50,919 bases of DNA from assembly GCA_019119995.1 (NCBI GenBank), contig DWVY01000066.1:1-50919 (forward strand), in the 5' to 3' direction. This DNA comes from Candidatus Mediterraneibacter faecavium. Lineage in GTDB: Bacteria > Bacillota > Clostridia > Lachnospirales > Lachnospiraceae. The translations under genes and the position numbers were made by a program. Below the pieces are notes generated by a model. It saw only the letters and a list, made by a program, of their open reading frames with translations. It had not been told where the DNA came from and searched no databases. Positions 32,447 to 38,361 of the stretch are shown one piece after another (positions within the stretch are counted from its first letter, which is position 1; the number at the start of each line of letters is the position of its first letter).

Positions 32447-33850
32447 TTACTCGCGGAGATCTGCAATCTCTCCCATATCCGGCAGCCACACTTCCGAGGC
32501 GTCTATCCTGTTTCCCATATCCGCTTCCTGACCGGAAATGGTCGAGGGGATCGTCCCGTCCAGTTGGCCTCTTACGCTCTCGGATCTGAGCAGACAGAAT
32601 TTGGCGAAAGTCTCCACACCGGTCAGGTAATCTTCATATGAACAGAATGCGGTGGGATCTTTTTCTACGTACGGGGCGATCATCCTGGTCGTCTCGGCTA
32701 CTTTTTTCTCGAAATATCCGTTTTCAAAGTAGTTCTCCATGAAATGATCAAAATATCCGTGATATCGGGTAAAATACTCCTCTGTCTTCATCAGGTTATG
32801 ATAGAGCGGTCGGTTCAGCATGACCTCCCCGGCAGCGGGGGTGTCTATCGGGTAATTCACATAGAGTCCGGCGTCGTTTACAGGATCCGACATGCCGAGG
32901 GAGTACGTGGCAAACGCAAGATTATAATCCCAGGGCAGGATACGGATGATACCGTCTTCCTCGTAAAGAAAATAATTATGTCCGGTTTTGCCCAGATAGC
33001 TGTCCAGATTTACGACAAATACCTGAACCGTAAAATATCTGAGTACTTCGTCTACGTCAACGGCGGATTGAAGTTCTGTTCCGTGTCCTTCTGAAAGGAC
33101 TTTTAACGCACGGATCAGACGCTGTTGGTCGGATTCTGTGCAGTCGAATTTTGCATGACGGAAGATATTATCGTAATCTTCAGGATTATCGGTAGTGTAT
33201 TTCAGAGCCACATCATTGTTGGCGTCTTCAAGCGAACGGTAATCAGGCTTATACAGCATACCGTGATCCGCACCGAAATTACGACGGGCAAACGCCTCCT
33301 CGGGCTCTTCCACAGCCAGAAATAATCCCCAGTCTTTTTCGTTTACCGTAACCTGGACATAGCTGCACAGCGGCGACGGGACGCCCATAAAACGCATCAT
33401 GTCATATGTCATATAATTCTTCAGATAAGAATTATCCTGAAAAGAAGAATCCAGAGACATTTTATCCAGTCCGTAGTATGTGTTTCCATCCTGAAAATGA
33501 TCAAATTCTATTTTGAGGCTGTACCTGTCAAGTCCGTATTCTTCCACAAGCCTGCGCGAATTGTTTCCTTTGGCTCTCAGCCCTACGGAAGCGAAAAGCT
33601 CGCCGTCGATCTCTACATCGCATTCGACGTATTCTTCTTCTGGCGCATCTTCAAGGAACTTATCCCAGTCGCCGATCTGAATATCGATACGGTGGACGTA
33701 ACTGTCGTCGAATATTTTCACAGAATATTCGGGCGTTGATGAAACCGGCGTGATCCCCAGCTTGTCTCCTGCAAGGAATAATGAGGCTATGATACATGCG
33801 GCAGCTGCGATGACTATACAGATCTGGTCGGTATATTTGTGCTTCAGCAT
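32447..33850 (-). CDS. CotH-like protein kinase, membrane-anchored
   Basis: This 467-residue protein has an N-terminal hydrophobic anchor (about 9-27) and the CotH kinase fold outside the membrane: GLRAKGNNSRR near 93, YGLDKMSLDSSFQDNSYLKN near 127, NLDSYLGKTGHNYFLY near 280 and the catalytic-type ILPWDYNLAF near 305. CotH proteins are atypical kinases that phosphorylate spore-coat or surface proteins. It is the last gene of a minus-strand operon (lipoprotein, VTC, DUF4956, CotH) and begins 5 nt after DUF4956. The Tyr- and Ser-rich tail of the lipoprotein is a possible substrate. Confidence 0.88.
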   Translation of the reverse strand: MLKHKYTDQICIVIAAAACIIASLFLAGDKLGITPVSSTPEYSVKIFDDSYVHRIDIQIGDWDKFLEDAPEEEYVECDVEIDGELFASVGLRAKGNNSRRLVEEYGLDRYSLKIEFDHFQDGNTYYGLDKMSLDSSFQDNSYLKNYMTYDMMRFMGVPSPLCSYVQVTVNEKDWGLFLAVEEPEEAFARRNFGADHGMLYKPDYRSLEDANNDVALKYTTDNPEDYDNIFRHAKFDCTESDQQRLIRALKVLSEGHGTELQSAVDVDEVLRYFTVQVFVVNLDSYLGKTGHNYFLYEEDGIIRILPWDYNLAFATYSLGMSDPVNDAGLYVNYPIDTPAAGEVMLNRPLYHNLMKTEEYFTRYHGYFDHFMENYFENGYFEKKVAETTRMIAPYVEKDPTAFCSYEDYLTGVETFAKFCLLRSESVRGQLDGTIPSTISGQEADMGNRIDASEVWLPDMGEIADLRE

Positions 33851-33855
33851 GGCGG

Positions 33856-34536
33856 TTACCCCATATAGTCTCCGTTGTACGAGACTAAGACTACATTGCT
33901 GATTCCTTCAATCTGGGACAGCGCATTGACAAATGCTGACTCCCCTTCTTTAAAACGGATCTCATAGTTCAGTTCAATACATCCGGGAGAGACTGCCTTG
34001 CTCTTTAAGGAAACAGCTTTCACCTGTCCTTTGATATATTCTTCGGCTTCTTTTTCCTTCTCGGCCGTTTCACAGTGAATTACGAGAATATAAGGGCGTT
34101 CTATATTCTTCCTGCCGGAGAAAATCAGGAGGATAAGCCCGATAAATACACTTCCGAAGACCGCAAGCGGTATGAAGCCGGCGGCGAGTACGATGCCTGC
34201 TGCGATACTCCAGAAAAGAAACGCGATATCCATAGGTTCCTTGATCGCTGTCCGGAAGCGGACGATGGAGAGTGCGCCGACCATACCGAGCGAGAGCACT
34301 ACATTGCTCGTAACGGCAAGAATAAGGAGCGTGGTTATCAGTGTAAGCGCGACAAGCGTAGCTCCGAAAGATGCAGAGTACATCAGTCCGCAGTAGCTCT
34401 TCTTATAGATATAGAAGATAAAAAGCCCCATTGCAAAGGAAAGAATGAGGGCGACCGCCATATCCAGAACAGAGATTGCATTTACATTTTCTAAAAATCC
34501 TGATTTAAAAATATCCTGAAATGTCATAGTGTCCAC
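33856..34536 (-). CDS. DUF4956 membrane protein
   Basis: This 226-residue protein has four hydrophobic segments in its first 135 residues, with the family pattern VLSLGMVGALSIVRFRTAIKE. A soluble C-terminal domain of about 80 residues follows. DUF4956 genes repeatedly lie between VTC and CotH genes, suggesting that the three proteins form one complex or pathway; the function is unknown. The upstream 115-nt gap to the VTC gene holds GC-rich stems (around GGATCC repeats) that may modulate expression. Confidence 0.88.
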   Translation of the reverse strand: MDTMTFQDIFKSGFLENVNAISVLDMAVALILSFAMGLFIFYIYKKSYCGLMYSASFGATLVALTLITTLLILAVTSNVVLSLGMVGALSIVRFRTAIKEPMDIAFLFWSIAAGIVLAAGFIPLAVFGSVFIGLILLIFSGRKNIERPYILVIHCETAEKEKEAEEYIKGQVKAVSLKSKAVSPGCIELNYEIRFKEGESAFVNALSQIEGISNVVLVSYNGDYMG

Positions 34537-34651: not shown

Positions 34652-35347
34652 TCAGCCAAAACGCCTGCAGACGGCATATTTTGAAAACGCGCCGGTCTTT
34701 CTGTCCGGCACCTGAACCGCCATCCTGACAATGTCCGGTAAAAATGCGTCGTATTTTACTTCCAGGACCGTATTTCCCGGTTCAGGCTCAAGAAAATTGG
34801 AAAGTGTCTTTAAAAACACTCCTGAAGAAGTACATGTGCAGACTCTCCTGTCAAGCGTAATGCGTACATTGCCCGGAGCGAATATAAATGCCTCGCGTTC
34901 ATAGCTGACGATTGTCCGGGGCATCAGAAGTTCGCCTCTCATCTTGCTGTAGAGTTCGATCAAAAGCGGGTCTTTGCTCTTAAGAAGAAAAACAATATCG
35001 CCTTTTAATAGTTTTTCAGCCTGCCTGTAAGAAAGGCGGGCGCTGCGTTTGGAGCAAAGCCCGCCCTTCTTTATCTTTTTCTCAAGCCGGAGAAAATCCG
35101 GCGCATCACCGTAATATCGAAGCCGGAATTTCTCACGTTTGTCTACTCCGGAAATCTTCTGGAGCAGAGCCTTGTCTTCCGGAGTGTCAAAATAAAGGCT
35201 GTTTACCTGATATACGCCGCCCGGCCCGGCATGGCTGTCCCTGTGGAACAGCCTGCCGAGTCTTTCTGATATGATCCGGTCTTCTGCCGGAGAGATCAGA
35301 TGTTTAAGCTCGTGGCGGAAAGAGGCGGGCGTTTTATTAATCATCAT
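34652..35347 (-). CDS. VTC-domain protein, polyphosphate-polymerase-like
   Basis: This 231-residue protein is a tunnel-fold (TTM-type) domain like the catalytic part of yeast VTC4. It has RHELKHLIS at the start, VNSLYFDTPEDKAL near 47, KFRLRYYGD, a basic strand (RLEKKIKKGGLCSKRSARLS), PRTIVSYEREAF, and a final ELE-like strand (TVLEVKYDAFLPD). VTC4 makes polyphosphate from ATP; the bacterial role is inferred. The start at 35347 overlaps the end of the lipoprotein gene by 11 nt. A longer frame to 35749 reads the lipoprotein repeats in the wrong frame and is rejected. Confidence 0.85.
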   Translation of the reverse strand: MMINKTPASFRHELKHLISPAEDRIISERLGRLFHRDSHAGPGGVYQVNSLYFDTPEDKALLQKISGVDKREKFRLRYYGDAPDFLRLEKKIKKGGLCSKRSARLSYRQAEKLLKGDIVFLLKSKDPLLIELYSKMRGELLMPRTIVSYEREAFIFAPGNVRITLDRRVCTCTSSGVFLKTLSNFLEPEPGNTVLEVKYDAFLPDIVRMAVQVPDRKTGAFSKYAVCRRFG

Positions 35348-36356
35348 AGCCGGAATCTCCGTCATCGTAACCGGAATCCCCGTTGTCATCGTAACCGGAA
35401 TCGCTGCTGCCGTAATTGGAATTTCCGCTGTCATAGCCGGAATCACCGTAGTCCGTTGTCCCTGAGCCGGATGATTGTGACGGGGCAGGAGCCGCCGGCT
35501 GTGACGGGGCAGGAGCTGCCGGCTGGGAAGGAGCAGGAGCCGCCGGCTGGGAAGGCGCGGGAGTTGTCGCCTGTCCTGAGCTGTAGCCGGAATCGCCATC
35601 GTCATAGTTTGTAACGCCGTCGCTGCCTGATCCATAATCAGTGCTTCCATAGTTTGTGTTGCCATAATCTGTGTGTCCGCTGGTTCCTGTATTTGTATTG
35701 CCGCCTGCATTGTCTGAACTGCCCGATGCAGCAGTCGGTTTGTCATCATAGTCAGTTACACCGTCGCTGGTTGTGCCGTAGTCGGTATCATCATAGTTAG
35801 TCACCCCGTCGTTGTCCGGGCCGTAGTCCGTATCGCCGTAATTGGTCCAGCCGTAAGTGCTTTCGCCATCTATCGCAACAGGGGTGTTGATCTTCTCGGC
35901 GCTTGTGTACTTCTGGATTTCAGCTACAATGGTATTTAAAAAGTTTTCTGTCGGAAGAATGGAACCTTCTTCTATTTCGAGAGTGATCTGATGCGCCTTG
36001 CCTTCTGTTTCCTCTACGAAATATCCGGCTTCGTTTATCAGGGCGATAAGTTCGCTGATAACAGTGTGGCATTCTTTCCCTTCAAAACCGGTATAATCGG
36101 CGATTACTTTTTTGCCGTCGTCGTTGCGGCTTTCGACATTTGTAACCTTGCCGTTTTCATCATAGAATACTGCAATTTCGGGATTTACCTTGAGGGAAAT
36201 GACGCCTCCCTGTTCTTCTGCCTGTGTCTCTGTGACAGTGCCGGTCTGTGCGGCGGCCGGGGCAGAAGGCTGTCTGCTTCCGCATCCGATGAGCCCTCCG
36301 AAGAGTGAAAGTGATAATACAGCTGCGAGTGTTGCCATTAATCTTTTCTTTGTCAT
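35337..36356 (-). CDS. lipoprotein with RsgI-like domain and repetitive Tyr/Asp tail
   Basis: This 339-residue protein has a signal peptide ending in a lipobox (LIGC, Cys25), so it should be membrane-anchored outside the cell. Residues 52-160 resemble the extracellular domain of the RsgI protein encoded 1 kb away. Both share ...NPE...G-V-VE-N-DGK-DY-GK, including an Asn58-Pro59 pair, the place where RsgI proteins are known to cut themselves. The last 170 residues are low-complexity: NYDDTDYG-like Tyr/Asp repeats, four PAPSQPAA units and SGYDD repeats. It is transcribed divergently from sigI from a promoter with the same motif. I read it as an orphan sensor or decoy for SigI/RsgI signalling. 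Confidence 0.83.
   Translation of the reverse strand: MTKKRLMATLAAVLSLSLFGGLIGCGSRQPSAPAAAQTGTVTETQAEEQGGVISLKVNPEIAVFYDENGKVTNVESRNDDGKKVIADYTGFEGKECHTVISELIALINEAGYFVEETEGKAHQITLEIEEGSILPTENFLNTIVAEIQKYTSAEKINTPVAIDGESTYGWTNYGDTDYGPDNDGVTNYDDTDYGTTSDGVTDYDDKPTAASGSSDNAGGNTNTGTSGHTDYGNTNYGSTDYGSGSDGVTNYDDGDSGYSSGQATTPAPSQPAAPAPSQPAAPAPSQPAAPAPSQSSGSGTTDYGDSGYDSGNSNYGSSDSGYDDNGDSGYDDGDSGYDD
35476..35571 (-). repeat. four 24-bp tandem repeats encoding PAPSQPAA
   Basis: Units start at 35476, 35500, 35524 and 35548. Two use TGTGACGGGGC and two TGGGAAGG-type starts, yet all encode PAPSQ. The last unit is degenerate. Such minisatellites can change copy number by slippage. Confidence 0.85.
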
Positions 36357-36399: not shown

Positions 36400-36433
36400 T
36401 AGTATACGAAAGCCAGGACAGAAAAACGGGGTC
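36400..36433 (-). promoter_or_regulatory. SigI-type promoter of the lipoprotein-VTC-DUF4956-CotH operon
   Basis: On the minus strand GACCCCG (36433-36427), 18 nt, then CGTATACTA (36408-36400). This is identical in both boxes and spacing to the site in front of sigI. SigI promoters in Bacillus and cellulolytic clostridia have a C-rich -35 and a CG-starting -10. The start codon is 44 nt downstream. Confidence 0.75.
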
Positions 36434-36593
36434 AGAAAGGATTTTTTTGAAAAAATTTTTTCCCCTGGCGGCACTGTTGTGTTTATTATAATGTAGCTTT
36501 TCTGACAAATCTTTGCATTTACATGGATTTAACGTATATATAACATAAATTTTATGTAAAAGTTGTAAAATTCTTCTGCGAATTTTAAACTCA

Positions 36594-36627
36594 GACCCCG
36601 AAAATAATCACTCAGCTTCGTATACTA
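36594..36627 (+). promoter_or_regulatory. SigI-type autoregulatory promoter of sigI-rsgI
   Basis: GACCCCG (36594-36600), 18 nt, CGTATACTA (36619-36627), then TTAGGAGG and the sigI start at 36647. The short distance places the transcription start about 15 nt before the start codon. The match to the divergent site predicts positive autoregulation. A palindrome ACATAAA-T-TTTATGT (36543-36557) lies between the two promoters. Confidence 0.75.
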
Positions 36628-37401: not shown

Positions 37402-38361
37402 ATGGAAAAAGAGACAAATTATCTGGTAGTAGAAGTGCATAATGCATATGCGGTTGTCCTGGATAACGGAGGACGGTTCATAAAAGCGGCAAACTGCGGA
37501 TATGAGGTCGGAGACACCATTGACAGTATCATTCCCATGGTCTATCCCCAGGATAAAAGGAAACGTGCCAATACGATCATCCGCCTGGCTGCAAGTATAG
37601 CTGCCTGCATATGCCTGGGTATTTTCGGGATTTACGAATACCAGTATGTATATACTGAATATGGAAGCATACATATGCAGATCAATCCTGAGGTGGAAAT
37701 CACCCTGAGCCGTTCGGGACGCGTTCTGGACGTCGAGGGAGAAAATGAAGACGGAAAAGAGCTGGTCAGAGATTATGAATATAAAGGGAAAGATAAAGAA
37801 ACAGTTGTAGACGAGCTTGCGGATCTGGCTATAGAACAGCAGTATCTTGCAGACGCCGGGCGGATTTCTATCGAAGTGGATGCGCGCAGCGATGAATGGG
37901 TGCGGAAAATGGAAACAGAGTTATCGAAAGAGCTTAACAGCTATCTGCAGGGTCAGGGCATAACGATAGAAGTGATCGTCGGTCCTATGGAAGACGAGGA
38001 CGATACAGAGAGCAAAGAGATTCTGGAGAAGCCGCAGTCTGTTACCATTCCGATCCCGGAAATGACGGATCAGACAGATGACTCTGCGGCGGGAAGTGAT
38101 TATAGCGGCGATGATGGGGTGACAGACTATGCTGCGCCATCCGGAACAACATCCGCACCGGCCGCTCCCTCATCTTCAGCTCCGGCTCCTGCGCCGGTAC
38201 AGAGTGATCCGGGGGATGACAGCGGCGGTGACAGCTCGTATGGCGGCGGTGACAACTCGGACGACAGCAGCGGAAACAGTCCTTATGACAGTCAGGGGAA
38301 CAGTTCTTATGGCGACAGTTCCTACAGCGGTTCAGATGGAGATAATGATGACGATGATTGA
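37402..38361 (+). CDS. rsgI: RsgI-type anti-sigma factor with low-complexity tail
   Basis: This 319-residue protein has a short cytoplasmic SigI-binding domain (1-50, LVVEVHNAYAVVLDNGGRF), one membrane segment (about 58-78) and an extracellular domain (about 85-195) beginning HMQINPEVEITL. The Asn95-Pro96 pair is the site at which RsgI proteins cleave themselves, a step needed for signalling. The last 120 residues are disordered: a Pro/Ala run, then Gly, Ser, Asp and Tyr, with DGVTDY shared with the lipoprotein at 35337. No carbohydrate-binding module is seen, so the signal may be bound by another protein or by the tail. Confidence 0.88.
   Translation: MEKETNYLVVEVHNAYAVVLDNGGRFIKAANCGYEVGDTIDSIIPMVYPQDKRKRANTIIRLAASIAACICLGIFGIYEYQYVYTEYGSIHMQINPEVEITLSRSGRVLDVEGENEDGKELVRDYEYKGKDKETVVDELADLAIEQQYLADAGRISIEVDARSDEWVRKMETELSKELNSYLQGQGITIEVIVGPMEDEDDTESKEILEKPQSVTIPIPEMTDQTDDSAAGSDYSGDDGVTDYAAPSGTTSAPAAPSSSAPAPAPVQSDPGDDSGGDSSYGGGDNSDDSSGNSPYDSQGNSSYGDSSYSGSDGDNDDDD

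Follow-up and report, generated by a model that had tools for sequence, protein, structure and literature searches.

Does the sigma factor SigI transcribe, in addition to its own gene, the lipoprotein operon that lies back to back with it? The question is raised by a stretch of 50,919 nt from Candidatus Mediterraneibacter faecavium (referred to here as the window), in which the gap between sigI and the lipoprotein gene carries the same promoter-like motif on both strands. A first-pass annotation had read the two copies as divergent promoters through which SigI would turn on itself, its anti-sigma factor RsgI and a four-gene surface operon. The features that are relevant to this reading are collected in Table 1.

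Table 1. Features of the sigI/lipoprotein region; positions are those of the window.
Feature	Position	Strand	Remarks
CotH-family kinase-like protein	32447..33850	-	PF08757, 206.9 bits; N-terminal hydrophobic segment read from sequence
DUF4956 membrane protein	33856..34536	-	PF16316, 41.1 bits
VTC-domain protein (polyphosphate polymerase type)	34652..35347	-	PF09359, 114.7 bits; start codon overlaps the lipoprotein end
Lipoprotein, 339 aa	35337..36356	-	lipobox, RsgI_M domain, long D/G/Y/T-rich tail
Lipoprotein Asn58-Pro59, predicted autocleavage site as in RsgI	36180..36185	-	invariant in a 41-row alignment
Candidate SigI-type promoter facing the lipoprotein operon	36400..36433	-	GACCCCG, T-tract TTTTT, 13 nt, CGTATACTA
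Four direct repeats, 11-bp period	36518..36556	+	TTTACA-N5-TTAACG-N5-ATAACA-N5-TTTATG
Sigma-A-like -10 facing sigI, downstream of the repeats	36566..36571	+	TAAAAT; read from the 19-locus alignment
Candidate SigI-type promoter facing sigI	36594..36627	+	GACCCCG, A-tract AAAA, 14 nt, CGTATACTA
sigI, sigma-I factor, 245 aa	36647..37384	+	Sigma70_r2 above cut-off
rsgI, membrane anti-sigma-I factor, 319 aa	37402..38361	+	RsgI_N, hydrophobic segment, RsgI_M, acidic low-complexity tail
RsgI Asn95-Pro96, expected autocleavage site	37684..37689	+	aligned Pro starts PDB chain 8hep_B

The pair of motifs was recovered as described, with GACCCCG-N18-CGTATACTA present on the minus strand (36433-36400) and again on the plus strand (36594-36627), and the argument that sixteen bases at a fixed spacing would hardly arise by chance held as well. 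A 13-base core of the motif, allowed a spacer of 16-20, gave a mean of 0.01 matches per dinucleotide-shuffled window, and two core matches in one shuffle were seen in 0 of 100 cases. A genome scan recovered the core only at these two places in the 2,840,951-base assembly (2.84 Mb, around 90% complete), and the reversed control pattern gave one match in the whole assembly. A longer pattern with at most two mismatches added three scattered matches in the own genome, versus eight for its reversed control. The 18-nt 'spacer' is itself constrained: it starts with an A-tract on the sigI side and with a T-tract on the lipoprotein side, which are kept in most relatives. The gap had no match in a plasmid collection, and the literature searched yielded no mapped transcription starts for this clade.

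To establish the conservation of the sites, genome contigs were scanned and 43 SigI loci were obtained, which according to their titles come from genera of the Lachnospiraceae and Oscillospiraceae and from unnamed Clostridia, with chicken as the source of some; many are closely related, and at 85% SigI identity they form 20 clusters. Among the named relatives Mediterraneibacter catenae is the closest, with a SigI that is 93% identical. A SigI-type site was found upstream of sigI in 43 of 43 genes (the window and 42 loci; L070 was omitted from the tract table, its sigI upstream region lying off the contig). The lipoprotein gene has a site of its own in 38 of 39 loci, across two gene layouts. 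In the first, divergent as in the window, the site is present in 19/19 loci; in the second, with the co-directional order sigI-rsgI-lipoprotein-VTC-DUF4956-CotH, it is present in 19/20, and 13 of those 19 have two tandem sites. Only L076 has no site before the lipoprotein gene, and four loci (L051, L057, L062, L072) are without a lipoprotein gene in the contig DNA examined. The co-directional layout constitutes a partly independent check, because the lipoprotein operon sits behind rsgI there and yet keeps its own site. The six genes recur in most loci whose contig sequence reaches far enough, the exceptions with only the lipoprotein being L048 (divergent), L050 and L071 (both co-directional). 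Two reduced cassettes were also seen (L076 and L226), in which sigI-rsgI-lipoprotein-CotH lacks VTC and DUF4956 in between, and in L070 two T-tract sites precede the lipoprotein gene.

When the 19 divergent loci are aligned, the majority base stands at the 16 fixed positions in 92% of the sequences on the lipoprotein side and in 93% on the sigI side; with boxes and ribosome sites set apart, the remainder of the gap reaches 61%. In this alignment, which was built without the motif pattern, the -10 never varies in its C, G, T and A; the 94 sites of the tract table discussed below were collected by a pattern that requires the C-rich box and CGTA, and form no separate test of these two elements. 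Given their sequence and placement, both sites are probably divergent SigI-dependent promoters.

The distribution within the genus points to the same connection. SigI was found in 10 of 37 same-genus genomes (G000-G036, of varying completeness). A CotH orthologue occurs in the same ten, of which G030 has only a fragment of it where a contig stops, and in 0 of the 27 others; a VTC protein of at least 66% identity is likewise present in these ten, with 8 of the 27 others having only a distant VTC (at most 38%). The patchiness of the cassette suggests repeated loss or transfer. A looser motif, ACCCCR-N17-19-CGTANNCT, matched 20 times in the ten SigI genomes (reversed control 9), and 18 of these matches lie at the cassette; the 27 genomes without SigI gave 14 scattered matches (reversed control 26). 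With a pattern of this stringency the only evident regulon of SigI is its own cassette, because 18 of the 20 matches sit there; weaker targets elsewhere are possible. The placement of the boxes, their conservation and this concentration support the earlier claim that SigI drives itself, RsgI and the four-gene operon, except that SigI is probably not the only input, as argued below. Two further observations concern isolated sites. A near-match starting GACCCCGAAGATTT, with 1-2 mismatches, recurs in three genomes with SigI and one without (G013:C39:4404-4437, G003:C29:17240-17273, G020:C8:53660-53693 and G004:C40:22472-22505) and is probably an unrelated conserved sequence. A lone SigI-promoter-like site, ACCCCGAAAAG...CGTATTCT, lies at G024:C99:3011-3043 in a same-genus genome (81% complete) in which no close SigI was found.

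The window protein itself, judged from its sequence, combines sigma region 2 with a SigI-C domain in place of sigma-4, the combination by which the sigma-I family is recognized. Sigma70_r2 scores 26.6 bits (cut-off 24), no region-4 family is listed, and the C-domain of SigI1 (6ivu) aligns at residues 134-237. Its nearest solved relatives are SigI6 and SigI1 of C. thermocellum (solved open complexes), which align over most of its length. It was not filed as a TIGR02895 (spore_sigI) equivalog, because it covers nearly the whole model at 161 bits, under the cut-off of 185. The residues aligned with R98, D101 and R104 of SigI6, described in the available structural account as the contacts to the -10 CG, are kept in all 44 SigI proteins of the clade except for one R98Q. 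The product of the adjoining gene is recognizable as RsgI by RsgI_M (86.3 bits, above cut-off), with RsgI_N at 20.9 bits, below its cut-off of 25, and a single hydrophobic segment read from the sequence. The Asn-Pro dipeptide at the predicted autocleavage site is present in 43/43 complete RsgI proteins; autoproteolysis at this site is expected on the basis of the available part of PMC12203970 and the start of PDB chain 8hep_B.

Some deviating loci were encountered outside the main set. In L195 an in-frame stop splits sigI into two open pieces, with rsgI and a lipoprotein remaining. In L209 (855-4985, minus strand) and L216 (7630-11757, plus strand), both members of the clade in the class-wide sample, sigI-rsgI is followed by a surface-type protein of 1376-1377 aa with lamin-tail and metallophosphoesterase domains; their sigI-facing -10 is CGAA, and the DNA examined showed no gene for a lipoprotein, VTC, DUF4956 or CotH.

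The first gene of the opposite operon is closely connected to the anti-sigma factor, as the lipoprotein is, by sequence, a second copy of the RsgI outer domain with the same Asn-Pro site (NP in 35/35 complete lipoproteins) and a similar acidic tail. Pfam gave no match to RsgI_N up to E 5, and because this domain is absent the protein represents a copy of the ectodomain and not an anti-sigma factor. A duplicate of the sensor within the output might buffer or reset the sensor itself, a sensor-mimic feedback that we consider possible but rather unlikely. Under the alternative, the lipoprotein would be an effector, surface or cation-binding, that reuses RsgI_M as a self-cleaving anchor and has no feedback on RsgI, and the chances of this fall only slightly short of even. 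It would fit the position of the gene at the head of the output operon, the longer tail (median 168 aa, versus 97 aa in RsgI) and the greater frequency in that tail of the unit DG[VIT]T[DNG]Y (32/35 lipoproteins versus 24/43 RsgI). What speaks against it is the resemblance of the two tails, which have 5-mers in common in 32 of 35 pairs, and more so within a genome than between shuffled genomes: 226 shared 5-mers were counted within genomes versus a mean of 133 in shuffled pairings, with 0 of 1000 shuffles reaching 226, a comparison from which relatedness was not removed. Incomplete proteins were omitted from the tail counts (the lipoproteins of L055, L065, L066, L068 and L069 and the RsgI of L057). 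Thrombospondin-type calcium repeats were considered for the tails and rejected, as Pfam returned none up to E 5 for three lipoproteins and one RsgI. In two co-directional loci (L054, 7856-9103; L068, 7803-8789) RsgI_M of the lipoprotein is followed by a PepSY domain, which is absent from the lipoprotein of the window.

The designation 'surface operon' turned out to be only partly right, as it does not suit the two genes that follow. VTC proteins are expected to be cytosolic, and the first part of the DUF4956 protein is predicted to be mostly helical, as expected of a membrane protein. Its structural model (pTM 0.54) is weakly similar in the C-terminal part to the C-domain of MgtC; no eukaryotic VTC chain appeared among the 50 matches listed for it. 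The three genes have been seen together elsewhere. CotH, polyphosphate polymerase and DUF4956 are contiguous accessory genes of Gram-positive Pel loci, where according to the available text they adjoin pelDEADAFG plus DUF4832 or a cyclase (PMC7112168), whereas in the window the trio is attached to sigI-rsgI-lipoprotein. The NELoc-2 locus of C. perfringens is described as containing a SigI-type sigma factor, VTC proteins, membrane proteins and CotH (PMC2879425, PMC11677781), to which PMC11677781 adds an anti-sigma factor domain protein. The likeness is one of gene lists, and the available text of these reports proposes no promoter, no lipoprotein copied from RsgI and no regulon. Our literature search, mostly without subscription journals, returned no function for the VTC-DUF4956-CotH trio, and nothing on CotH with a VTC domain and polyphosphate or on SigI/RsgI in Lachnospiraceae; no comparable cassette figured in the paper titles among the matches listed.

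SigI is probably not the sole input, because a third conserved element, similar to one found before pstS, sits between the two sites. The four direct repeats are probably the box of an OmpR-family response regulator, with PhoP as the first choice. Scored with a consensus derived from the window itself, the box was the only match of at least 20 of 24 on either strand of the window. With 200 shuffles for each locus, p was at most 0.005 in 19/19 divergent loci and at most 0.01 on the sigI strand in 20 of the 24 others, the outliers being L055 (best match on the other strand), L067 (p 0.07), L069 (p 0.355) and L075 (p 0.03). The strict pair TT[TA]AC[ACG]-N5-TT[TA]AC[ACG] occurs in 14/19 divergent and 8/24 other sigI regions, and pairs of the unit TT[TAG]A[CT] in 17/19 and 24/24, respectively, versus 88 of 2000 random stretches. 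The sigma-A-like -10 downstream reads TATACT, TATAAT or TATATT in 17 of 18 aligned relatives. In the class-wide sample the box scored well in only two of the eight clade members, and 25 of 85 other SigI genes reached a two-unit score, in more AT-rich DNA (L145 and L172 were left out, having too little upstream DNA).

The Pho box, the site of PhoP, consists of direct repeats of TT[ATC]A[CT]A with an 11-bp period. The window and its genus agree with this consensus and share the element with a phosphate gene, which is not general in the clade. TTTACA-N5-TTAACA precedes pstS in the window's own genome. In 14 of the 15 same-genus genomes, the own genome among them, pstS is preceded by an 11-bp unit pair in the same orientation to the gene (in the 15th, G022, the upstream region is truncated by a contig end), versus 48 of 2000 random stretches. 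Among nine further genomes searched for pstS, seven were read upstream, of which four have the pair; in the genomes of L063, L075 and L076 the units stand singly, at other spacings. PhoP is the first choice because of this like-oriented unit pair before pstS in the same genus, and we regard PhoP input to sigI in this lineage as an evenly balanced proposition. A link to phosphate would suit a polyphosphate polymerase. No literature was found on PhoP with TTAACA direct repeats. WalR recognizes TGTWAH-N5-TGTWAH, and the reverse complement of the repeat box fits this consensus nearly as well: a score of at least 11/12 is reached in 36/43 loci for WalR versus 40/43, with 12/420 and 14/420 random stretches, respectively. 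It is therefore conceivable, and we give it a real though minority share of our confidence, that the box binds WalR or another OmpR-family regulator and that the second input is the state of the cell wall and not phosphate. In B. subtilis lytE has a SigI promoter next to a WalR-dependent sigma-A promoter (PMC7299342, available part), which lends this alternative some precedent, but it leaves aside the like-oriented units before pstS within the genus and in the four further genomes.

In published SigI promoters a C-rich region of specificity and an A-tract are followed, after 13-14 nt, by CGWA, as far as described in the available text of PMC6056542, PMC4711584 and PMC10575876. The earlier remark that the C-rich -35 and the CG-type -10 agree with known SigI promoters is corroborated by this architecture: both window sites have ACCCC, and CGTA follows 14 nt (sigI) and 13 nt (lipoprotein) past the tract. 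The sigI-facing site also has the A-tract, as AAAA; over the clade the sigI-facing tracts are A-tracts in 34/43, T-tracts in 4/43 and neither in 5/43. In the lipoprotein-facing site TTTTT is found at this position, and 50 of the 51 lipoprotein-facing sites have a T-tract, the remaining one being a T/A tie. This site is best described as a putative variant SigI promoter, because a T-tract replaces the published A-tract. In the available part of PMC6056542, which covers cellulosome producers, the A-tract is stated to be recognized by SigI factors in general, and single changes in it abolished recognition by SigI3. If it is indeed a SigI promoter, the lipoprotein-side site contradicts this rule.

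The likeness to C. thermocellum, as far as its promoters have been listed in the available sources, is considerable. It comprises the C-rich -35, tract, 13-14 nt and CGWA -10, sigI-rsgI operons bearing their own SigI promoters and an RsgI ectodomain of the same fold; the sigI2 promoter, CccccgAAA-14-CGaA, equals the sigI site of the window in boxes and spacing, and the promoter predicted for sigI7 in the published list has no clear A-tract. The differences are that C. thermocellum has several SigI factors with mostly cellulosome-related targets and the A-tract as a general rule, whereas the window clade has one SigI, with a target cassette bearing T-tract sites, and no carbohydrate-binding domain was found on the window RsgI. 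Bacillus subtilis is further removed: the Bacillales consensus, ACCCCC--AA-15N-CGAA, is unlike the window sites, and the SigI targets described for it in the available text are lytE and mreBH, not VTC-DUF4956-CotH.

Since the T-tract is a feature of ECF promoters in B. subtilis, at that same position and with a similar -10, and the A/T difference has been suggested to separate the two kinds and perhaps to prevent crosstalk (PMC6056542, available part), only the sigI site might be a SigI promoter, the lipoprotein site being used by an ECF sigma factor. We consider this very unlikely: the upstream half of the -35 is ACCCC as at sigI and not the AAC triad named there for ECF promoters, the motif is concentrated at the cassette within the genus, and sigI itself has a T-tract site in some lineages, namely in the four cases above and in six of eight further clade members from the class-wide sample (A-tract in one, none found in one). 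Because of these six, the division into an A-tract for self and a T-tract for output does not hold throughout. The class-wide sample comprised 391 genomes, from which 60 chosen and 30 other SigI loci were taken. Replacement of the minor-groove His171 of SigI6 by Gln was considered as the cause of the T-tract and could not be established. Gln occupies this position in all 44 clade SigI proteins; a further 94 SigI rows (90 class-wide plus five order-level loci, minus L195, which was too short; eight of the 94 are the further clade members) have H, A, S, K, N, Q, F, G or T there. Among these rows, for which a loose promoter finder returned nothing in 56 of 94, Gln was also found with A-tract sites and T-tract sites were also found without Gln. 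That the boxes are operators of a DNA-binding regulator, with sigma-A using TATNCT as -10 at both starts, is highly improbable: TATNCT resembles a sigma-A -10 and an OmpR-type box lies nearby, but a sigma-70 scan (at least 9/12 matches) places no promoter -10 at either site, the invariant C, G, T and A are unexplained by it, CG is retained at the CGTAATCT sites although these no longer match TATNCT, most relatives have not kept the GTATAC palindrome seen in the window, and the spacing of 18 or 19 and the gene-ward direction are retained.

In the SigI reading that we prefer, the two sites would be the promoters of a self-contained module. SigI, whose recognition of both we infer, would use the A-tract site to transcribe sigI-rsgI, its own operon, and the T-tract site to transcribe lipoprotein-VTC-DUF4956-CotH, with a start just 3' of CGTATACT at both genes. 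RsgI would retain SigI at the membrane, and this hold would end once the RsgI ectodomain, after processing at Asn-Pro, has been released and what is left of RsgI degraded. The OmpR-type box, with PhoP as its most likely ligand, would give sigI a second, sigma-A-dependent entry, opened by phosphate limitation in this lineage, and the output would include the lipid-anchored ectodomain copy, with its presumed buffering or resetting of the sensor. Taken to its full extent, this would be a phosphate-gated SigI circuit that makes a lipid-anchored mimic of its own sensor, in which CotH, VTC and DUF4956 modify the RsgI and lipoprotein tails (by phosphorylation or with polyphosphate), thereby resetting the sensor, and in which SigI reads an A-tract (self) and a T-tract (output) class of promoter. 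As a whole, this extended version is improbable; were it true, it would break the rule by which SigI and ECF promoters have been proposed to be kept apart.

The layout recurs in many relatives, and its third element may tie the gene set to phosphate supply. Recognition of T-tract sites by SigI would challenge the published generality of A-tract recognition, with many sites in two families, and the lipoprotein would be a naturally occurring example of a sensor domain with a second copy in its own regulon. The VTC-DUF4956-CotH trio gains a candidate regulator, a surface partner and a condition that may induce it, all of which would be testable in one commensal.
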